A DNA stretch of 36,905 nt from Rhodovarius crocodyli (GTDB lineage: Bacteria; Pseudomonadota; Alphaproteobacteria; Acetobacterales; Acetobacteraceae), in assembly GCA_945901085.1 (NCBI GenBank), contig CAMDJV010000037.1, positions 1-36,905 on the forward strand, read 5' to 3'. Below are positions 1,746 through 33,534 of this stretch, in pieces. The notes below the pieces were generated by a model. The model worked only from the letters and a program-made list of their open reading frames with translations, made no database searches and was not told the origin of the DNA. How positions within the stretch are numbered: the stretch's first letter is position 1; every line of letters begins with the position of its first letter. A program made the position numbers and the translations under genes.

Positions 1746-3326
1746 TCAATTGGCCAGCCAGGTGTCGTGCCAGGAGGAGGATGCCCAGCGCGGGTTATTG
1801 GCCACATTGCGCAGCCGCTTATTGAAGACGCTGACAAAAATCTGCTCGATGGGCATCCAGAGCGGCAATTCGGTTTGCGCCCGGCGGACGAAATCGGCGT
1901 AGAGCGCGCGGCGGCGCGGCACATCCAGCTCGGTGGCCGCATTGTCGATGATCTGGTCGATGGTGGGGTCGTTCCAGCCCCATTGATTGGTCCAGGGCGC
2001 ACCCACCGGGCTGCCCGAGCGGTACCACACCGTGGTGCTGACCGCGGGGTCCGAGCGGTATTGGTGCCAGCCGGAGGCGAGGTCGAAATTATGGTCATTG
2101 TAGATGGTGCGCAGCCAGCCTGCGGCATCGAGCCGGACGATTTCGATCCGCACACCGATCTGGGCAAAGCTCTGCTGCATGAAGGTGGCGAAGAGCGAGA
2201 TATCCTCGCCCCAGGGGGCGGGGTGAAGGCGGAGCGAAAAGCGCACGCCGCCAGCGCCACGGCGATGGCCGGCCTCGTCGAGCAGGCGGTTGGCCGCCGC
2301 CACATCGAAGGGATATTGCGGCATTCCGGCCGGGTAATAATCGGTGGAGACCGAGGGGATCGGCCCCGTCCCAGGCTTGGCGAAACTGCCCAGAAAATTC
2401 TCGATGAAGAAGGGGATATTCAGCGCATGGGCGAGCGCCTTGCGCACCCGGATATCGGCCAGGATCGGGTTGCGGAAGTTGAATTCCAGCGTGTTGGTGC
2501 GGGCATTGCCCTCATTGCCGCGGGTGGTGACCTCAAAGCGCGGGTCGCGGGCCAGGCGCTGGAAATCGGAAATCGCCAGGGCAGAATAGGGGCTGAATAG
2601 AATCTGCCCGGCCTCCATCTGCGCCGCCGCCGCCGCACGGTCGCCGACCACCCGCCAGACCACACGGTCGAGATAGGGCAAGTTCGGGCGCCAGTAATTG
2701 GTGTTGCGGTCGGCGATGATGAATTGGCCGCGCTCATATTGGACGAATTTGAACGGGCCGGTGCCGATGGGCGCGGTATTGGCCGGGTTCTGCCGAATAT
2801 CGCCGGTCTCATAGATGTGCTTGGGCGAGATATAGCCCAGATCGGGCAGCGCGCGCAGCAGCAGGCCCAGTGGCATCGGCCGCTCATAGCGGAAGATAGC
2901 GGTCAGCGGGTCGGGCGTATCCACCGCGGTGAGGAACAGCTGCAAGGCCGTGCCGTAGTTGAGAATCTTCTTCCACATTTCCATCGCGGTGAAAGCGACA
3001 TCGGCGGAGGTGAAGGGCTTGCCATCATGCCAAGTCACGCCCGCGCGCAGCTTGAAGGTGATGGATTTGCCATCCGCGCTGCTTTCCCAGGATTCGGCTA
3101 GCACGGGGGTTGGGTTGCCGGCCGCATCGAGATCGACCAGCGCCTCCTGGATCTTGCCGCCGACGATATAGACGCCGGTCGAGGCCTGGAGCGAGGGGTT
3201 GAGGATGCGCTGCTCGGTGGAGAAATGCACCGTCATCACGCCGCCGCGGCGCGGCGTTTCCTGCGCGATGGCAGGCACGCTCACCAGGCTGCTGCCAACC
3301 AATAAAAAGGTCTCGCGACGGTTCAT
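1746..3326 (-). CDS. ABC transporter substrate-binding protein, family 5 (DppA/OppA-like)
   Basis: 526 aa periplasmic receptor. I start it at the ATG at 3326 (MNRRETFLL...), not at an in-frame ATG 30 bp upstream, because it then has a signal peptide and a GGAG-type ribosome binding site, and its ATG overlaps the stop of the glyoxalase-like gene (ATGA). The signal has a twin arginine (NRRETFLL) and ends near IAQ, so Tat or Sec export are both possible. The family 5 signature region is visible at about residues 60-130: QEALVDLDAAGNPTPVLAES, then SITFKLRAGVTWHDGKPFTS. It belongs with the two permeases downstream and gives the importer its substrate specificity, which is not known. Confidence 0.94.
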   Translation of the reverse strand: MNRRETFLLVGSSLVSVPAIAQETPRRGGVMTVHFSTEQRILNPSLQASTGVYIVGGKIQEALVDLDAAGNPTPVLAESWESSADGKSITFKLRAGVTWHDGKPFTSADVAFTAMEMWKKILNYGTALQLFLTAVDTPDPLTAIFRYERPMPLGLLLRALPDLGYISPKHIYETGDIRQNPANTAPIGTGPFKFVQYERGQFIIADRNTNYWRPNLPYLDRVVWRVVGDRAAAAAQMEAGQILFSPYSALAISDFQRLARDPRFEVTTRGNEGNARTNTLEFNFRNPILADIRVRKALAHALNIPFFIENFLGSFAKPGTGPIPSVSTDYYPAGMPQYPFDVAAANRLLDEAGHRRGAGGVRFSLRLHPAPWGEDISLFATFMQQSFAQIGVRIEIVRLDAAGWLRTIYNDHNFDLASGWHQYRSDPAVSTTVWYRSGSPVGAPWTNQWGWNDPTIDQIIDNAATELDVPRRRALYADFVRRAQTELPLWMPIEQIFVSVFNKRLRNVANNPRWASSSWHDTWLAN

Positions 3327-4117
3327 GGGGTGATCTCCTGGAAGATGAGGCCGCAACCATTGGCCATGGCGGGCGGGCGGGGGATGGTGGTGCCGAGGAT
3401 GAGGGCGGCGCCGCCCTCCTCGGGCAGGGCTTCGGGGTCAAAACCGCCCAGCGCTGCGATGGTTTCGCGCGGGGCGAAGCCGATATCGGCCCGGCCGGGG
3501 CCGGTGGGGACGAGGCGAATGCCATCCTCCAGCCGCACCACGCTCTCGGTCAGCCGGGCCAGATGTTCCGCCGCCTTATTGGGGAAATTGCTGGCGACCA
3601 GCACACGGATGATGCGCGTGACGCCATTGGGCTGGGCCTGCAATTCCGGCACCCAGACGGTGTGCCTGGTGTGGTGCTGGCAGGCGAAGATGCGCAAGCC
3701 GGCCGGCGCTTCGGTCACCGGCCAATGCATGACCGAGAAGCGGGCCTCGGCCATGCTGCCATCGGGCATGGGCACGGGGCGGCCGAAATGCACTGGGCCG
3801 GTGGCAGGGATGCCACGCGCCTGCAGGGCGGCGACGCCCGCACCGGCATCGGTGGTGGTGAAGGCGGTGCGCTCCAGCCCCTCGCGCTTGGCGAGGAAGC
3901 CACGCAGCGGCGCATTATGCGGCTTTTCGGCCAGAACGCCCAGGAGTTCGAGGTAATCCTCCCCGAACATCATGGTGTAATTGCCGCTGCCCATATGCTC
4001 GCTATGGGTGCCGCGCGGCGAGAGGTGGAAGCCAAGCGCGGCCCATTGTGCCGCTGCGGCATCCAGGTCGCGCACGGCGATGACAACATGGTCGAGGCCA
4101 AGGATGGTGGGGATCAT
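3323..4117 (-). CDS. Glyoxalase-like (VOC superfamily) protein
   Basis: 264 aa. The start at 4117 is chosen because the fold begins at once (MIPTILGLDHVVIAVRDLDA) and a G-rich Shine-Dalgarno stretch sits just upstream; the longer frame upstream looks non-coding. The N-terminal half is a VOC module with LDHVVIAV and a metal-site-like HSEHMGSGNYTMMFGEDYLEL. The second half resembles Glyoxalase_3-type (PF13468) proteins. Function unknown; VOC enzymes include lyases, isomerases and dioxygenases. Its place between the racemase-fold gene and the solute-binding protein gene, with an ATGA overlap into the latter, ties it to the catabolic operon. A 106-bp gap separates it from the gene upstream, the largest break inside this operon. 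Confidence 0.85.
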   Translation of the reverse strand: MIPTILGLDHVVIAVRDLDAAAAQWAALGFHLSPRGTHSEHMGSGNYTMMFGEDYLELLGVLAEKPHNAPLRGFLAKREGLERTAFTTTDAGAGVAALQARGIPATGPVHFGRPVPMPDGSMAEARFSVMHWPVTEAPAGLRIFACQHHTRHTVWVPELQAQPNGVTRIIRVLVASNFPNKAAEHLARLTESVVRLEDGIRLVPTGPGRADIGFAPRETIAALGGFDPEALPEEGGAALILGTTIPRPPAMANGCGLIFQEITP

Positions 4118-4223
4118 GCCCCCAATGGTGTCGCTTCTCCCGCCGCGATGCAACATGGCCCGGGGCTTGTGACCATCAGAGGCGGTTTCCCCAACCTCTA
4201 TTCGGGGAACGGCCGGGCGATTG

Positions 4224-4934
4224 TCATGCCATGCTGAACAGGCTGCCCCAGCCGCGCACCTGCGCGGGGTCGGCCCCGGCTTTGCGCATGGCACCCCATA
4301 GCGCGGTCGCGATGGTGTCAAAGACCGGGATGCCGAGCCGTGCCTCGGCCCGCGCCGCCGGGCGGGGGCCGCGCAGATTGGTGGAGATCACCGCAATGGC
4401 GTCCAGGCCCGGGGTGCGGCCAACATCGAGGATGGCGGCCTCGATCTCGGCCTCGGTGAAGCGGGCGAAGGTGTAATTGCCGGGGTCGTTGAAATGATGC
4501 TCGGCCACGACCTCCAGCCCCTCCTCCGCCAGCACGCGGATGGTGGCCGCCTGCACATCATGCAGGAAGGGGGAGACCAGGCCGATGCGGCGCGCCCCCT
4601 TGAGGCGCAGGGCCTCCAGCAGCGCCAGCATGGCCGTCTCCGCCGGTTGCGGCAGCAAGTGCAGCAATTCCCGGTCACCCGCCATGCCGGTGTAGCAGGA
4701 GGCGGTGGCGTTGAGGCAAATGGCATGCATATGCGCATCCGCCAGCATCGAGGCTGCTTCCAGCAGCGGTGCGGCCTGGAACTGCGCCAGCGCCTCATCG
4801 GAGGTGTCGAGCCGCGTCACCCGAAAGCGCGCGACATGCAGCGAGACGCGCGGCACATCGCGCAGCATTTCCATGGTCAGCGGCTCGGCCGCGGTGTTGC
4901 TGGAAGGCACCAGCATGCCAATGCGCGTGCTCAT
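4224..4934 (-). CDS. Maleate isomerase / Asp-Glu racemase superfamily protein
   Basis: 236 aa, the usual length for maleate cis-trans isomerase and arylmalonate decarboxylase-like proteins. The N-terminal IGMLVPSSNTAAEPLTMEML (residues 5-24) is the family's substrate-binding SSNT motif. The second half-site region (residues 181-188, AVISTNLR) matches the position of the usual S-C-T-N-L motif. Both catalytic cysteine positions look changed: alanine 76 in NATAS (although C73 and C80 lie close by) and serine 184 in ISTN. This is a comparison from memory, not an alignment. It overlaps the CitE-like gene by ATGA. In a maleamate-type route the expected reaction would be maleate to fumarate, but the altered cysteines argue for another reaction or for a degenerate enzyme. 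Confidence 0.85.
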   Translation of the reverse strand: MSTRIGMLVPSSNTAAEPLTMEMLRDVPRVSLHVARFRVTRLDTSDEALAQFQAAPLLEAASMLADAHMHAICLNATASCYTGMAGDRELLHLLPQPAETAMLALLEALRLKGARRIGLVSPFLHDVQAATIRVLAEEGLEVVAEHHFNDPGNYTFARFTEAEIEAAILDVGRTPGLDAIAVISTNLRGPRPAARAEARLGIPVFDTIATALWGAMRKAGADPAQVRGWGSLFSMA

Positions 4935-5800
4935 GCCCGGGCCCGCGCGATCAACTGCCGGGCGCGCTGCACCACCGGGATATCGATCATCTGCCCCTCG
5001 AAGGTCACCGCCCCCAGGCCCTGGGCCAGCGCCTCATCAAAGGCCGCGACCATGCGCTGCGCCCGCGCCACCGCCTCGGGCGAGACGCCATATTCCTCGT
5101 TGATGATCGGCACATGCATGGGGTGGATGCAGGTGGTGCAGTCAAAACCCAGGCGGCGGGAGCGGCGCAGATTGGCGCGATAGCCCTCCAGATCCGTCAG
5201 CCCTGCCACGGTGCCGATAAAGCCCATGGCCAGAATGCCGGCGGCCTTGGCCGAGAGCAGGCCGAGCCGCTTGGGGAATTCCAGCGCATCGGGCGAGGGC
5301 TCGATGCCCATATCGGTGGCCAGATCCTCAGCCCCGACGCCCATGCCGATGACGCGCGGATGGGCGGAGGCGATGTCCTTCGCCCGCAGCACGGCGGCGG
5401 CATCCTCGACCAGCAGGATCATGCCGGTGGAGCCAGGCTGCATGCCCTGCCGCGCCTCGGCGGCATCGATCAATTCGGCCAGCAGGCGGACATGTTCGGG
5501 GCCCATGATCTTGGTGCAGATCAGCGCCCGCACGCCGGGGCGGACGGCAGCCGCGATGTCCAGCACCGTCCATTCCAGCTCGCGATTGGTGCGCACCACC
5601 ACATCGGCGCCGTTTTGCGACACGCGGGGGATGGCGCCTTCGAGGGCGGCGCGGGCGGCGGGTTTTTCCGGCGGTGAGATGCTGTCCTCAAGGTCGAGAA
5701 TAATCGCATCGGCGCCGCGCTCATGCGCTTTGGCGATGAATTTTTCCCGTGCCGCAGGCACGAACATCAGGGAGCGCCAATTGGGCAGGGTCTGTTTCAT
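4931..5800 (-). CDS. HpcH/HpaI aldolase / citrate lyase beta-like (CitE family) protein
   Basis: 289 aa from the ATG at 5800, which overlaps the stop of the deacetylase-fold gene (ATGA). It is a TIM-barrel C-C lyase or thioesterase of the CitE/malyl-CoA lyase type. Visible motifs are RSLMFVPA (9-16), the acidic DLEDSI (36-41), VVVRTN with R70, the metal-site glutamate in LLVEDAAAV (E132), and GVGAEDLATDMG (155-166) at the active-site rim. Known members use Mg2+ and cleave or hydrolyse acyl-CoA or hydroxy-acid substrates. No citrate lyase alpha or gamma subunits are nearby, so it is a stand-alone CitE-like protein acting late in the pathway of this operon. Exact substrate unknown. Confidence 0.9.
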   Translation of the reverse strand: MKQTLPNWRSLMFVPAAREKFIAKAHERGADAIILDLEDSISPPEKPAARAALEGAIPRVSQNGADVVVRTNRELEWTVLDIAAAVRPGVRALICTKIMGPEHVRLLAELIDAAEARQGMQPGSTGMILLVEDAAAVLRAKDIASAHPRVIGMGVGAEDLATDMGIEPSPDALEFPKRLGLLSAKAAGILAMGFIGTVAGLTDLEGYRANLRRSRRLGFDCTTCIHPMHVPIINEEYGVSPEAVARAQRMVAAFDEALAQGLGAVTFEGQMIDIPVVQRARQLIARARA

Positions 5801-6675
5801 GGGGCGTGGTGTTCCATCCAGTGGCGGGCGATATCGAGCCTTCGGCAGACCCAAATCTCGGGCATGGCCTTCACCGCATCAAGGATGCGCTTGAGACCAA
5901 TGGCGCGGGCGGGGTGGCCGATGATGCGGTTGTGCAGGCCCACGGTCAGCATGCGGCTGCCGGGCTCGCTCAGCGCCATCTCAATCGCGCCCATGATGTA
6001 GGTGTGAAAATCATCGCCGGTGGTGATGGCGGCGCGCTGAAACCGCACATCATTATTCACCAGCGTATAGGGGATGACGAGATGCGGGCGGCCATGCTCG
6101 TGATTCCAATAGGGCAATTCGTCATCATAGGCGTCGCTGTCATAGCTGTAGCCCAGCTCCATCAGGATGCGCCGGGTGTTGAGGCTGGGGGCGTAGCGGC
6201 AATACCAGCCCTGGGGGCGGTGGCCGGTGGTCTCCTCGATGATGCGGGTGGCCTCGGTCAAAGCGTGGCGCTCGGTGGCCTCATCCATATCGGCGTGGCT
6301 CTCCCAACGCAGGCCATGGCCCACCACGTCCCAGCCGGCCTCGCGGATGGCCGCTGCCGCCTGGGGGGTGCGCTGCAGGCATTGCGCCACGGCATAGATG
6401 GTGCAGGGCAGACCCGCGCGGGCGAAAAGCCCATGCAGCCGCCAGAAGCCGACGCGGCTGCCGTATTGGAACATGCTCTCGGCCGCCAGGTCGCGGCCTT
6501 TCGGCAGGCCGGTGGAGCCCTCGGTCAGGGCGTTCTCGCTCTGCGGGTCGCCATCGGGCACGGAGCGCTCGCCGCCCTCCTCGTGATTGATGACGAAATT
6601 GAGCGCGAGGCGCGCACCGCCCGGCCAGCGCGCATCGGGGGGATTGCGGCCATAGCCTTCGAAATCGCGGATCAT
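5797..6675 (-). CDS. Polysaccharide deacetylase-fold amidohydrolase, PuuE-like
   Basis: 292 aa. It closely resembles the PuuE allantoinase / cyclic imide hydrolase branch of the NodB fold rather than sugar deacetylases: DFEGYGRNPPDARWPGGARL at the N-terminus, HEEGGE (31-36), YGSRVGFWRL (71-80), GHGLRWESH (119-127), GWYCRYAPSLNTRR (156-169) and DSDAYDDELPYW (179-190). Known members open the ring of allantoin or of cyclic imides such as succinimide and maleimide. It overlaps the next gene by ATGA and the previous gene by 4 bp. No other urate or purine genes are present, so allantoin is only one candidate; an imide or related cyclic amide fits the isomerase-like and CitE-like neighbours equally well. 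Confidence 0.9.
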   Translation of the reverse strand: MIRDFEGYGRNPPDARWPGGARLALNFVINHEEGGERSVPDGDPQSENALTEGSTGLPKGRDLAAESMFQYGSRVGFWRLHGLFARAGLPCTIYAVAQCLQRTPQAAAAIREAGWDVVGHGLRWESHADMDEATERHALTEATRIIEETTGHRPQGWYCRYAPSLNTRRILMELGYSYDSDAYDDELPYWNHEHGRPHLVIPYTLVNNDVRFQRAAITTGDDFHTYIMGAIEMALSEPGSRMLTVGLHNRIIGHPARAIGLKRILDAVKAMPEIWVCRRLDIARHWMEHHAP

Positions 6676-29866: not shown

Positions 29867-30253
29867 ATGGAAACGCCCCGCTACAGCATAGATCATATCC
29901 ATTACCGCACCCTCGACCCCGAGGCCGCCGCCACCTTCTGGCGTGACGTCTTCGGCGCCACCGAGAAGGGCCGCGTCATCAATAACGGCCGGCTTCGGGT
30001 GATGTTCGACCTGGGTGGCCTCGCCATCTTCGTCGAGGAAGTCCCCGCCGGCACGCCCCCAACCCCGCCCCCTGCCTTCCTCGGCCTCGAACATCTGGCG
30101 CTGACCGTCACCGATATGGACGCCGCCGTGGCCGATCTGACGGCCAAGGGCGCCACCCTGGCCAAGCCGGTCAGCAGCCCCCGCCCGGGCATTCGCATCT
30201 GCTTCGTCAATGCGCCCGATGGGGCGCAGGTGGAGCTGGTGCAGCGCGGCTAA
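29867..30253 (+). CDS. VOC (glyoxalase/bleomycin-resistance) family protein
   Basis: 128 aa, two beta-alpha-beta modules. The first begins with IDHIHYRTLDPEAAATFWRD (8-27), with the metal-ligand-type histidine in DHIHYR; the second begins at GLEHLALTVTDMDAAVADL and ends with DGAQVELVQ, whose glutamate is the usual last metal ligand. The pattern resembles lactoylglutathione lyase-like and methylmalonyl-CoA epimerase-like proteins; substrate unknown. The start at 29867 is set by the fold boundary; the upstream frame is short and basic. Its stop overlaps the convergent JmjC-type gene by 4 bp. Confidence 0.88.
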   Translation: METPRYSIDHIHYRTLDPEAAATFWRDVFGATEKGRVINNGRLRVMFDLGGLAIFVEEVPAGTPPTPPPAFLGLEHLALTVTDMDAAVADLTAKGATLAKPVSSPRPGIRICFVNAPDGAQVELVQRG

Positions 30254-31455
30254 ACCGCCGCCTCCAACAACCCATCCCGCCGCAGCCGCCGCATGAACTC
30301 CAGCGCCCCCTCGCCCAATTCGGCGGCGGTGGCGCCATCGGTCAGCGGCCCCAGCCACGCCGCCTCATGCGCGGCCAGGGCAATTTCGCCGCAGGTCCAG
30401 TGCAGGCTGGCCTGGCCATCTGGGGTGATGGCCAAATGGTGGTGCATGCCATCCGCCAGCCGCATCGGCATATCTTCGGTCAATTCCGCCAAAAACAGCC
30501 CGCGCGCTGGCAGCGGCTGCCGGTCATGCGCCAATTGGTTGAGCAGCAGCAACGACAGCCGCTCCCCATGCTCAGCCGTGGCGAGGCCGCGCAGCTTTTC
30601 CGCCATGGCCTCCAGCAGCCCGGCCAGCCCCTCGGGCTCGGCCAGGCGCCAGGTGGGAACGGCCTGGCGCAGCGGCGTATTGGCCACCTCCTCGCTATCG
30701 ATGAGGCTGCGCAGCGCCTGCGCCCAGCTGGGTTCCAGCAGGCCCACGGTGATATGCAGCGAGGGCTCGCCCGGCTCCGTCGATGCATCATGCATCACGC
30801 CGCGCGGGATATAGAGCGCGTCGCCGGGCTGCATCATCACCAGATTCGGCTCGCCCTCGGGCGCAATATGGCCCGGCCAGGGAGTGCGGCGCGTGGGGTT
30901 TTCCACCGCCTGCCCATCCCATACCCGCCAGCGCTTGCGCCCGGATACCTGCAGCACCAGCACGTCATGCGTATCGAAATGGCTGCGAAAACCCTGCGCC
31001 TGCGGCGGGGTGAGGTAAATATTGGTCTGGCAGCCATGCAGGAACAGCTTTTCCAGCCCCCGGCAGAACCGCCCCAGCGGCGGATGCGTCTCATGGAACT
31101 GGCTGGCCACCAGCGAGGCGCCGGCATCGAAGCGGCGCAGCAGCCGCGGCAAATCCACCCTTCCATCGGGCAGGGTGAATTCATGCTCTGGCACGGCCGC
31201 GCTGCCCTCGCGGCTGTCATCGGCCATTGCAATGCGCGGGGAGCGGGCGCCATCCGTGCGCAGATAGGCATCAAGCACGGCAATGTTCAGCAGATCAGCA
31301 TAGCGCGCCACGCCGCCGCCGGAAAAATGCCGCCAGGCCGTGCCCTCCCGCAGCGCGAGCACGCTCTCCAGCGGCATATCACCAAAGGCGCGGGCAAAAG
31401 CCTCCTCCATGATGGAGGCCTCGGCCGGAGGCGCTGGCATCAACGTCTCGAGCAT
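30250..31455 (-). CDS. JmjC / cupin_4 Fe(II)/2-oxoglutarate oxygenase, RoxA (YcfD)-like
   Basis: 401 aa, similar in length and layout to bacterial ribosomal oxygenase YcfD/RoxA, which hydroxylates an arginine of ribosomal protein L16. The cupin core holds the iron triad H159 and D161 (SHFDTHDVLVLQVSGRKRWRVW region) and H222 (YIPRGVMHDAST). A likely 2-oxoglutarate-contacting basic residue is K174 or R175. The N-terminal region contains LHGCQTNIYLTPPQAQGFRS, and the C-terminal about 130 residues form the helical or winged-helix part used for dimers and substrate capture. It begins 6 bp after the repeat protein gene at 31462-31971, without a strong ribosome binding site, so translation is probably coupled. 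It could modify L16, but the operon suggests the repeat proteins are its substrates. Confidence 0.9.
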   Translation of the reverse strand: MLETLMPAPPAEASIMEEAFARAFGDMPLESVLALREGTAWRHFSGGGVARYADLLNIAVLDAYLRTDGARSPRIAMADDSREGSAAVPEHEFTLPDGRVDLPRLLRRFDAGASLVASQFHETHPPLGRFCRGLEKLFLHGCQTNIYLTPPQAQGFRSHFDTHDVLVLQVSGRKRWRVWDGQAVENPTRRTPWPGHIAPEGEPNLVMMQPGDALYIPRGVMHDASTEPGEPSLHITVGLLEPSWAQALRSLIDSEEVANTPLRQAVPTWRLAEPEGLAGLLEAMAEKLRGLATAEHGERLSLLLLNQLAHDRQPLPARGLFLAELTEDMPMRLADGMHHHLAITPDGQASLHWTCGEIALAAHEAAWLGPLTDGATAAELGEGALEFMRRLRRDGLLEAAV

Positions 31456-31461
31456 CGGCGC

Positions 31462-31971
31462 TCAGTATCCGCGCCGGCCCCGGCCGGGGCCATCCGAGGG
31501 GTCACTATCGTTCAAGCCGGTGCGGTAACCGCGATAGCCGCCATAGCCGCCATAGCCGCCCCGGCCCCGGCCCGGCCCGTCATTCGGGTCACGATCGGTG
31601 ATGCCGGTGCCGCGATAGACGCGGCTGCCGCCCCGGCCATTGCCGGGCCCATCATTGGGGTCTGCATCGGTGATGCCGCTGCCGCGATAAACGCGCGCAC
31701 CACCCCGGCCATTGCCAGGGCCATCATTGGGATCGGCATCGGTGAGGCCTGTGCCACGATAGACGCGCGCACCACCGCGGCCATTATTCGGCCCATCATT
31801 GGGGTCAGCATCGGTGATGCCAGTGCCGACGGGCGCGACATAGACGGGCTGCACCGGAACGCAGGCGGCAGTGCCCAATGTGGCGGCGCCAACAGCGCTC
31901 ATGCGAACGACTAGGCGCCGACGGCCAAGCTTTTCGTCATTATTGGCATTATTTTCATTATCGTTGTTCAT
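31462..31971 (-). CDS. Secreted/lipoprotein-like DxDPNDGPG repeat protein A
   Basis: 169 aa, family not recognised. The hydrophilic Asn/Asp-rich head (1-15) is followed by a Tat-like signal, LGRRRLVVRMSAVGAA, that ends in a weak lipobox (GTAAC, C37). From about residue 49 the protein is five tandem repeats, mostly 24 residues long: G-[TS]-G-[IL]-T-D-x-D-P-N-D-G-P-G-x-G-R-G-G-x-R-V-Y-R. The last two copies diverge (a GGYGGYGGY insert, then NDSDPSDGPGRGRRGY). The spacing of acidic residues (D-x-D-x-N-D-G) recalls calcium-binding loops but is not a canonical EF-hand. The ATG at 31971 has a GGAAA upstream. The gene lies 6 bp ahead of the JmjC-type oxygenase gene and 116 bp behind paralogue B. Confidence 0.82.
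   Translation of the reverse strand: MNNDNENNANNDEKLGRRRLVVRMSAVGAATLGTAACVPVQPVYVAPVGTGITDADPNDGPNNGRGGARVYRGTGLTDADPNDGPGNGRGGARVYRGSGITDADPNDGPGNGRGGSRVYRGTGITDRDPNDGPGRGRGGYGGYGGYRGYRTGLNDSDPSDGPGRGRRGY
31480..31827. repeat. 72-bp tandem coding repeats of protein A
   Basis: Five in-phase copies of a unit encoding [TS]G[IL]TDxDPNDGPGxGRGG, the first three at 72-bp spacing with nearly identical DNA (for instance CCATCATTGGGGTC recurs on the plus strand). The near identity suggests recent duplication; copy number may vary. Confidence 0.85.
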
Positions 31972-32087
31972 CGGTTTCCAGCCCCTGGACGTAAATGCGC
32001 TTTAAGCAGGCCGGCGCGAAAATCTCAACGCTTCTCATGCGCAGTGCCGGCAAGGTGAGCGTGCCGCAGCCATGGCCGCGGCTGAGG

Positions 32088-32435
32088 TCAGCGCCCGCGC
32101 CCACGGCCAGGGCCGTCGCTGGGGTCACTATCGGTCACGCCGCTGCCACCGCGATAGCCGCCCCGGCCCCGGCCTGGGCCGTCATTGGGGTCGCTATCGG
32201 TCACGCCGCTGCCACCGCGATAGCTGCCGCGGCCGCGGCCCGGGCCGTCATTGGGGTCGTTATCGGTGACCCCGCTGCCACCGCGATAGCCGCTCCGGCC
32301 CCGGCCGGGCCCGTCATTGGGATCGCGATCGGTGACGCCGGTCGTCGAGCCTCGGCCAGCGCCTACGCCATCACGGGGGTCACTATCGGTGGCACCACGG
32401 CTGCCACGGCCCCGGCCCGCTGCGTCATTGGGGTC
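32088..32435. repeat. 66-bp tandem coding repeats of protein B
   Basis: Four clean copies at 66-bp spacing plus two shorter degenerate ones towards the signal peptide. On the plus strand each clean copy contains TCACGCCGCTGCCACCGCGA or a one- to two-base variant. Confidence 0.85.
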
Positions 32436-32585
32436 ACTGTCGGTCGTGCGCTGGGCCTGCGCATCGCCCGGCGCGGCCGCACCGGCAGCGCCCATACCGG
32501 CCATGGCGGCACCACGGTTGATCACCAGGCGGCGCGTCAGCCGGCCCTTTGCCGCGGCATTTTTCCCCGGGCTATCCTCGGACAT
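32088..32585 (-). CDS. Secreted DxDPNDGPG repeat protein B (paralogue of A)
   Basis: 165 aa. The hydrophilic head (MSEDSPGKNAAAKG) leads to a Tat-type signal, RLTRRLVINRGAAMAGMG, then AAGAAAPGDAQAQ with a plausible signal peptidase I site after AQA. The mature part is six repeats, TDSDPNDGPGRGRGGYRGGSGV at its cleanest (22 residues, 66 bp). The two N-terminal copies are eroded (TDSDPNDAAGRGRGSRGA; TDSDPRDGVGAGRGSTTGV). GGGAGG precedes the ATG at 32585 by about 10 bases. It is same-strand and upstream of repeat protein A, with the same head-signal-repeat layout, so the two arose by duplication or share a building block. Unlike A it has no lipobox, which predicts a soluble periplasmic or secreted form. 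Confidence 0.82.
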   Translation of the reverse strand: MSEDSPGKNAAAKGRLTRRLVINRGAAMAGMGAAGAAAPGDAQAQRTTDSDPNDAAGRGRGSRGATDSDPRDGVGAGRGSTTGVTDRDPNDGPGRGRSGYRGGSGVTDNDPNDGPGRGRGSYRGGSGVTDSDPNDGPGRGRGGYRGGSGVTDSDPSDGPGRGRGR

Positions 32586-32769: not shown

Positions 32770-33534
32770 ATGTCCGAACCCACCGCCACGCCGGCCACAG
32801 CGCCGCTCCTGCCCCCACTCTACAATGCCCTGGAGCCGCTCTCCCCGCAGCGCCATGCCGCGCTGCGCCTGCGCCATGGCGACTACACATTTGCGGCAGG
32901 GATATCGGCCATTCCCCTAGCGGCCGAGGAATTCGCCGCTGCCAGCCGCCATTACCCCATCGTCTTCACCACCGCGATGCCGCATATGCCCATGGCACTC
33001 ATGAGCCTGCTGGCCGATATCAATACCTTTGTTGACGCCAATGGCGCCTGGCAGCCGGGCAAATATATCCCTGCCTATCTCCGCCGTTTCCCCTTCTTCC
33101 TGGCCCAAATGGCCGAGGGCCGCGATGAGATGGCCCTATGCATGGATACCTCCGCGACGCAGGCCAGCAGCACCGAGGGTGAGGTATTATTCGGCGCCGA
33201 TGGCAAACCCACCCCCTTTCTGGACCAAGCCTTCGCCTTCTGCCGCAGCCTCGAGGCGGCCATGCAGCAGACCCTCGCACTGAGCAATGTCCTGACCGGC
33301 CTGAACCTTCTGCAACCCGCCGCCATGCAGTTCGAGCAGAATGGCAAGCCCACCAAGATAGACGGCTTCCACGCCATCCAGCGTGACGCCTTCGCCACCC
33401 TGCCCGCCGAAAAACTGGCCGAACTGCGTGACAATGGCGTGCTGGACCTGATCTACGCCCATTTCACATCAATGGGCGCCATGCAGGAACTGGCAGCCCG
33501 CAGCGCCGCCCGCGCCCGCCCTCTTGTCGGCTGA
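32770..33534 (+). CDS. SapC-family protein
   Basis: 254 aa. The ATG at 32770 has AGGA 5-8 bases upstream. It matches the SapC family (PF07277): LSPQRHAALRLRHGDYTFAA near the N-terminus, EEFAAASRHYPIVFT (about 56-70), an acidic middle part with WQPGKYIPAYLRRFPFFLA (about 96-114), and a C-terminal regulatory-like stretch FEQNGKPTKIDGFHAIQRDA. There is no signal peptide. The name comes from a surface-array locus, but the function in alphaproteobacteria is not settled; SapC genes often neighbour cupin-like oxygenase genes. Here it is divergent from the repeat protein and JmjC-type operon, which makes a functional link likely though unproven. Confidence 0.88.
   Translation: MSEPTATPATAPLLPPLYNALEPLSPQRHAALRLRHGDYTFAAGISAIPLAAEEFAAASRHYPIVFTTAMPHMPMALMSLLADINTFVDANGAWQPGKYIPAYLRRFPFFLAQMAEGRDEMALCMDTSATQASSTEGEVLFGADGKPTPFLDQAFAFCRSLEAAMQQTLALSNVLTGLNLLQPAAMQFEQNGKPTKIDGFHAIQRDAFATLPAEKLAELRDNGVLDLIYAHFTSMGAMQELAARSAARARPLVG

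Follow-up and report, generated by a model that had tools for sequence, protein, structure and literature searches.

A NO66-like JmjC oxygenase encoded beside twin-arginine repeat proteins in Rhodovarius crocodyli: a candidate enzyme–substrate pair

The stretch of DNA analysed here (the window) comprises 36,905 nt of Rhodovarius crocodyli and is contig C37 of a 3.85-Mb genome in 91 contigs. Three of its genes, encoding repeat proteins B and A and a JmjC-type oxygenase, are the subject of this report. A first-pass annotation, made by reading the window by itself, had placed them consecutively on the minus strand with A and the oxygenase 6 bp apart, in agreement with the coordinates of the open reading frames (ORFs), and had proposed that the oxygenase hydroxylates the repeats before their export. 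Throughout, numbered genomes, contigs and loci carry the letters G, C and L.

Genes of the locus and their products

The features of the locus are as follows.

32088-32585, minus: repeat protein B, 165 aa (ORF listing)
31462-31971, minus: repeat protein A, 169 aa (ORF listing)
30250-31455, minus: JmjC_2 (PF08007) Fe(II)/2-oxoglutarate (2OG) oxygenase, NO66/MINA53-like, 401 aa (Pfam, alignments, model)
32454-32585, minus: signal region of B, residues 1-44 (motif)
31861-31971, minus: signal region of A, residues 1-37 (motif GRRRLVVR...LGTAAC, lipoprotein type of the twin-arginine translocation (Tat) pathway)
32094-32340, minus: tandem repeat array in B (Tandem Repeats Finder, period 66 bp, 3.7 copies)
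31559-31828, minus: tandem repeat array in A (Tandem Repeats Finder, period 72 bp, 3.8 copies)

The 6-bp gap runs from the stop codon of A to the ATG of the oxygenase, and 116 bp separate B from A. A promoter/terminator scan gave neither a promoter-like nor a terminator-like site on the minus strand and one promoter-like site on the plus strand.

By motif, A consists of a twin-arginine signal with the lipobox LGTAAC (Cys37) followed by five units [TN]DxDPxDxxxxGR, and B of a twin-arginine signal with an AQA-type cleavage site followed by six units, the first two of which have AA and GV where the motif DxDPNDGPG has GP. The five to six repeats per protein reported initially thus stand, but their motif, DxDPNDGPGxGRGG, does not: the Asn varies, and the general unit is [TS]DxDPxDxxGxGR. 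Neither protein matches a Pfam or NCBIfam family at E up to 1, and the NCBIfam scan named no Tat model in them. Among 74 ORFs that met the repeat rule in the loci fetched by then, with signals assigned by regular expression, 72 carry an RR motif ahead of the repeats and 22 of these a lipobox as well, bearing out the Tat-like signals first proposed for A and B. The two others are an ORF truncated by the contig start (L014) and one missed by the rule, which placed the first unit too early (L026; its printed sequence does hold GRRRLVLR...GAAAC). For two ORFs of L038 and one each of L037, L045 and L046, all among the 72, the expression took a later RR, and an earlier one is visible in the sequence. 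The twin-arginine motif before a hydrophobic stretch marks the repeat proteins as putative Tat-type substrates. A further motif of the TL.DDxI type precedes the RR in 5/74 ORFs by regular expression, and in L056, L070 and L071; the expression found it neither in the window nor in any of the 18 named Acetobacteraceae loci.

The oxygenase matches PF08007 (JmjC_2) with 89.8 bits against a cut-off of 22. Its named relatives, 57-84% identical, belong to Acetobacteraceae and Roseomonadaceae (e.g. Rubritepida, Rhodovarius, Roseococcus and Sabulicella). The iron triad H159/D161/H222, recognised at the outset, is invariant in alignments A1 and A2 (18 and 21 sequences, the window's included). K174 is also invariant and in the profile alignment falls on the NO66 lysine that we take to be the ligand of the 2OG carboxylate; Y147 aligns with NO66 Tyr328 and is kept. 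NO66 numbers beyond Tyr328 and Ser421 are presumed, and agree with the spacing in the profile alignment. Ser421 of NO66 (257 in MINA53) aligns with G238, which is invariant in the 21 rows of A2. According to the part of PMC9994133 available to us, this serine binds the substrate His and completes the network around it; a side chain other than His is therefore expected as the target.

The original label of the enzyme, RoxA/YcfD-like, had to be revised. The profile scores 173 bits against NO66 and 37 bits against E. coli YcfD, and a Foldseek search with an AlphaFold model (pLDDT 76, pTM 0.65, from 18 sequences) ranks NO66 first (~450 columns; template-modelling score 0.62 by query length, on a moderate model), followed by MINA53, Rhodothermus marinus YcfD, YxbC and E. 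coli YcfD. The model suggests the catalytic, dimerisation and winged-helix domains of the ribosomal oxygenase (ROX) fold. Within the winged-helix-like part (~ residues 331-399), modelled residues 341-393 run strand-strand-strand-helix-helix-helix, the order that PMC12710340, in the passage available, requires of recognition elements (RREs) of ribosomally synthesised and post-translationally modified peptides (RiPPs). The C-terminal part thus appears to resemble RRE-like domains, a resemblance and not a test; a family scan of the oxygenase gave no match to the PqqD/RRE family.

Co-occurrence of repeat proteins and oxygenase

Pairing of the repeats with the oxygenase had been set beforehand as the test of the proposal. 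We searched 120 family-level genomes, the window's own included, for both components and in both directions. Repeats occur in 16 of the 120 (13/102 by genus). An oxygenase resembling P0001 at 149 bits or more is present in 15 of these 16 (in G088 as two frames) and in 0/104 genomes that lack repeats. One repeat-less genome, G091, has a 97-bit oxygenase gene in an open frame starting 77 bp from the contig end, so that at most 1/104 deviates; Fisher p is ~3e-18, or ~5e-17 counting G091, both uncorrected for kinship. One to three repeat ORFs lie upstream of the oxygenase on the same strand in 18/18 named Acetobacteraceae loci, and 14 of the 30 repeat loci, counted from coordinates, adjoin an oxygenase gene.

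The window's genome holds a second JmjC_2 gene, on contig C35 (32% identical to the window oxygenase over the matched part), whose flanks of 8-9 kb on each side contain no repeat ORF. Another repeat gene lies on contig C6, where the oxygenase search of this genome gave no match. A paralogue of the C35 type is also found in G095 (L029:5083-6315), just upstream of a repeat gene and the main oxygenase, suggesting that two JmjC enzymes may serve one substrate there.

Linkage in class and phylum agrees with that in the family. We sampled 337 genomes of the class and 349 of the phylum; many of these searches scored the best 5 to 15 candidates per genome and may miss genes. The repeat search with P0002 found 4 of the 337 class genomes (the window's own, G257, G349 and G442), in each of which a repeat locus adjoins a JmjC gene. 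The class sample also contains 12 JmjC genes at 127-160 bits in 11 genomes, and 11 of the 12 have a neighbouring twin-arginine repeat ORF; the repeat ORFs beside distant class JmjC genes are mostly of a kind that P0002 misses. The single gene without one, that of L053, stops 28 bp short of the end of its contig; at L052 and L058 the repeat ORFs lie downstream of the oxygenase. Among the weaker class JmjC genes, 0 of the 8 read (of 13) have repeats. Profile A2 retrieved four new genes at 410-430 bits in the phylum sample, all from one family, and all four (L069-L072) adjoin a divergent repeat ORF of about two units, partly degenerate in L069; none of 11 lower-scoring phylum genes does (9 read alongside, 2 earlier). 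The phylum sample, the sole one to reach beyond the class, yielded no high-scoring gene outside it.

Overall, repeats lie beside 37/39 genes scoring at least 389 bits (35 by script; L056 and L069 by eye), as the RiPP arrangement of a ribosomal precursor encoded beside its modifying enzyme would have it, and beside 1/18 scoring at most 241 bits; that one (L029) adjoins a high-scoring gene. Twenty-one of the 39 built the profile and score high by construction, and the two halves of the frameshifted L035 gene are omitted from this count. In a tree of 55 oxygenases the repeat label changes 4 times, against a mean of 16.1 in shuffles (0/500 as low; near-copies help), and placing the 38 high-scoring rows in one clade is not rejected (approximately unbiased test, p 0.30). 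The window's clade is deeply split from that of the other families (26-33% identity to P0001), and both keep repeat proteins. Clusters of neighbouring ORFs at 17 loci outside the window's relatives contain no third conserved partner; they are antisense or other-frame copies of the two genes, or synteny of close relatives. One epimerase-like ORF is common to three loci of two families (L054, L060, L070).

Because the two genes travel together so consistently in several groups of Alphaproteobacteria, modification of the repeats by the enzyme before they are exported is very probable, and we are confident that the repeats are its substrate. An ordinary ribosomal oxygenase with repeat genes as chance neighbours would share the three-domain NO66/MINA53 fold, but the pair is linked and co-occurs in many genera and in several families, and an invariant Gly stands in place of the substrate-His Ser, so that this reading is strongly disfavoured. 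It is just as improbable that the repeat proteins are structural surface proteins that the oxygenase uses only as an oxygen or iron gauge: the enzyme class does depend on O2, Fe and 2OG, and the exported proteins are of low complexity, yet no regulator appears among the ORF clusters common to the loci of other families.

Repeat unit, probable target and a proposed pathway

Across A, B and further repeat proteins the number of units ranges from 2 to 13. The search patterns of a first unit count already contained D1, D3 and the glycines, which makes the constancy of these positions a product of the selection. A second count, over proteins of the window's family, was anchored on [STN]DxDP alone and gave 314 units, in which the next Asp is kept in 314/314, G9 in 310/314, G11 in 314/314 and R12 in 299/314. 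Anchoring on GxGR alone gave 456 places, 301 of them with all three Asp in register; the commonest of the 155 misses are GxGR matches starting elsewhere in the same repeat unit. The conserved D, P, G and R are encoded by mixed synonymous codons (for D1, GAC 211 and GAT 103), which suggests that conservation of the unit is selective and not merely the result of recent copying.

The residue between P and D varies: in linked Acetobacteraceae units it is S in 45%, N in 20% and R in 19%, and in unlinked units N in 61%. Asn, one of the targets suggested by the first-pass annotation, is thus a poor candidate and was rejected as a general one. In other families Pro is sometimes replaced and the spacing can be longer (TDSDTGAYADPVGQGRG, TDNDSTDRSGQGRN, TDADNGNWTDRAGCGRG), and the units still hold the Asp pair, a later Asp and usually GxGR.

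The oxygenase might instead hydroxylate the Arg of the GxGR unit end, as YcfD does with Arg81 of ribosomal protein L16, whose beta carbon it modifies according to the portion of PMC4295552 available. The retention of Arg in most family units would suit this reading, but the remaining 15/314 end in GxGI, GxGT, GxGL, GxGA or GxGQ, the enzyme profile is far nearer NO66 than E. coli YcfD, and two ORFs have DxDPxD without a terminal Arg. One is the repeat ORF of the alphaproteobacterial locus L056 (SDYDPNDPIGGGSDTDPVDPIGEG), which has no Arg at the unit end and adjoins an oxygenase with an intact HxD motif. The other is a 48-residue ORF on a Streptomyces clavuligerus plasmid, with ADNDPSDPP and ADPDPFDP and no Gly-Arg end, directly before a JmjC/cupin gene. 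These two cases point to DxDPxD as the modified core. Asp is favoured since DxDPxD survives where the terminal Arg is absent, and we lean slightly towards it as the modified residue; Arg as target seems unlikely. The unlinked repeat proteins of G106 and G015 (L030, L041) have GxGI for GxGR and are natural Arg-versus-Asp cases.

The S. clavuligerus locus (L082:4760-6155), with an S9 peptidase and an ABC transporter nearby, looks like an undescribed small RiPP cluster. Its JmjC protein shares 38% identity with a class relative used as query, of which 63% is covered, and the motif TSLEPDEI of the 48-residue ORF resembles the TLTDDDI-type motif found before RR in repeat proteins of several alphaproteobacterial families. 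The plasmid search gave no match for P0001 (E 1e-40) or P0002 (E 1e-3), and a DxDPxD scan hit L064, L074, L075 and L079 once each, in ORFs that are unrelated or antisense.

We propose, with a probability of about 0.6, a two-component RiPP-like system in which the oxygenase hydroxylates Asp of DxDPxD before Tat export. The oxygenase would bind the repeat protein in the cytoplasm, perhaps via its C-terminal part and the region before RR. Hydroxylation with Fe(II), 2OG and O2 would then take place at an Asp of each DxDPxD unit or its spaced variant, as the enzyme family suggests, probably on the beta carbon, which relatives use on His and Arg. The enzyme would act on A, on B and on additional repeat proteins, including some whose genes lie at other sites in the genome. 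Tat export would follow modification, leaving A as a membrane-anchored lipoprotein, to judge by its motif, and B as a soluble or surface protein. Beta-hydroxyaspartate is an iron ligand in siderophores, and arrays of it could, speculatively, capture Fe(III) or Ca(II); we suggest, tentatively, a product that forms a polyvalent matrix binding metals or surfaces.

Other 2OG chemistry on the Asp repeats (desaturation, decarboxylation or a crosslink), or a binding partner without turnover, seems improbable. 2OG enzymes catalyse many types of reaction, and related JmjC genes occur in varied RiPP-like clusters; the nearest characterised relatives, however, are hydroxylases, and the triad, the 2OG lysine and the Tyr are intact.

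Several observations weigh against hydroxylation of Asp in a dedicated pair. Arg is itself highly conserved (299/314). Sixteen of the 30 repeat loci do not adjoin an oxygenase gene; for 14 of the 16 the oxygenase is encoded elsewhere in the same genome, and a single enzyme may thus act on several proteins. In G106 two repeat loci are accompanied only by the distant JmjC paralogue, and G005 has repeats and oxygenase on different contigs. The free tree, with 4 label changes, gives no support for a single clade of repeat-associated enzymes, and the oxygenase model is of moderate quality. The S. clavuligerus ORF lacks a Tat signal and comes from one species (16 plasmid records), and nine further JmjC loci on plasmids showed no DxDPxD ORF (Rhizobium etli, Mycetohabitans, Dolichospermum, Hyphomicrobiales UR115, Pseudanabaena, S. 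cattleyicolor, Streptomyces sp. NBC_00503, Paraburkholderia and Nostoc).

Relation to known systems and further observations

NO66/RIOX1 and MINA53/RIOX2, JmjC histidyl hydroxylases, share with the window oxygenase the whole-length fold, the HxD...H triad, the 2OG lysine and the active-site Asn and Tyr. Of the histidyl-hydroxylase residues, the Tyr is thus present and the Ser (421/257) is replaced by Gly238; unlike theirs, the window enzyme is encoded with exported repeat proteins, whose units lack His. YcfD/RoxA, the L16 Arg hydroxylase, belongs to the same superfamily and has a three-domain layout (PMC4295552, as far as available), but its sequence match is far weaker. BipG/PbsQ of the biphenomycin pathway are RiPP hydroxylases of JmjC or cupin-like type whose ribosomal precursor is likewise encoded in linkage with them (PMC12707348, PMC12257519); they modify Orn of a short precursor alongside several other tailoring enzymes, whereas the window has one enzyme and long repeat proteins. 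Bufferins and other RiPPs modified by multinuclear non-haem iron-dependent oxidative (MNIO) enzymes also combine an iron oxidase with a protein bearing an export signal, in some a lipoprotein signal, and bufferins bind copper (PMC12452194); in this group MNIO enzymes, Sec signals and mostly Cys motifs take the place of the JmjC enzyme, Tat-type signals and Asp motifs seen here. DAG-RiPPs, which are RiPP-lipoprotein hybrids, are likewise oxidatively modified ribosomal precursors that enter the lipoprotein pathway (PMC12636315, preprint), but they use MNIO enzymes, and JmjC, cupin and Tat are terms absent from the text of that preprint. PMC12710340 describes fusions of RRE-like domains to PF08007 and bacterial homologues found in RiPP-like settings; the passage concerned names no Tat repeat proteins.

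A description of the oxygenase and repeat-protein pair was not found in the open-access literature, subscription papers lying mostly outside the search, so the initial statement that no such system was known still holds within that scope. A lone NO66-like enzyme paired with Tat-type repeat proteins appears to be novel, and the presence of related JmjC genes in RiPP-like clusters makes the pairing look like a new RiPP-like variant. To our knowledge, few bacterial substrates of protein hydroxylation have been identified; here the genome data point to an enzyme, to several substrates and to a short motif. If the proposal is correct, JmjC oxygenases would have a role in the envelope, bacteria would possess a system that hydroxylates proteins at multiple sites, a likely function would be assigned to some of the cupin/JmjC gene family, and a new exported RiPP-like class would be defined. 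A bolder and rather doubtful extension is a widespread, undescribed RiPP-like class in which one NO66-like oxygenase, its C-terminal domain RRE-like, would hydroxylate Asp in every DxDPxD unit of several Tat-exported proteins, whether their genes are linked to its own or act in trans. The resulting poly-beta-hydroxyaspartate arrays would coat the cell envelope and bind a metal such as Fe(III) or Ca(II), with S. clavuligerus as a minimal version with its 48-residue precursor.

One neighbouring gene recurs beside the pair.

32770-33534, plus: SapC-family gene, divergent from B (PF07277, 206.7 bits)

It is present in 15/18 named Acetobacteraceae loci, in the window and in G088. Of the other-family loci tested (L049-L068), none has it; within the window's family it is not in the fetched stretch of L029, L033, L034 or L048. 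The gene is a conserved neighbour in many Acetobacteraceae loci and possibly has an accessory role. We know of no clear role for the SapC family, which would gain a partner in Acetobacteraceae if the pairing is real.

The window's genome carries two photosynthetic reaction-centre genes (PF00124; C30:18543-20209) and is therefore probably that of an anoxygenic phototroph. A link between the repeats and anoxygenic phototrophy was considered and rejected, PF00124 being present in 7/16 repeat-bearing and 36/104 other genomes (Fisher p 0.58).

Three further loci place JmjC genes among RiPP-type neighbours. In G762 (L073:1810-6514) a lower-scoring JmjC gene (4946-6166, minus) overlaps a LanM-like lanthipeptide synthetase ORF (1810-4956, minus) and follows a Nif11-like leader ORF (6227-6514, minus), the names LanM and Nif11 being taken from sequence resemblance. 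A Pseudanabaena plasmid (L087:1-4155) has a cupin/JmjC gene near an annotated LanM lanthipeptide synthetase, and a Rhizobium etli plasmid (L083:2200-6125) a RiPP-like set of a JmjC gene, a 77-residue ORF and a radical SAM/SPASM gene.

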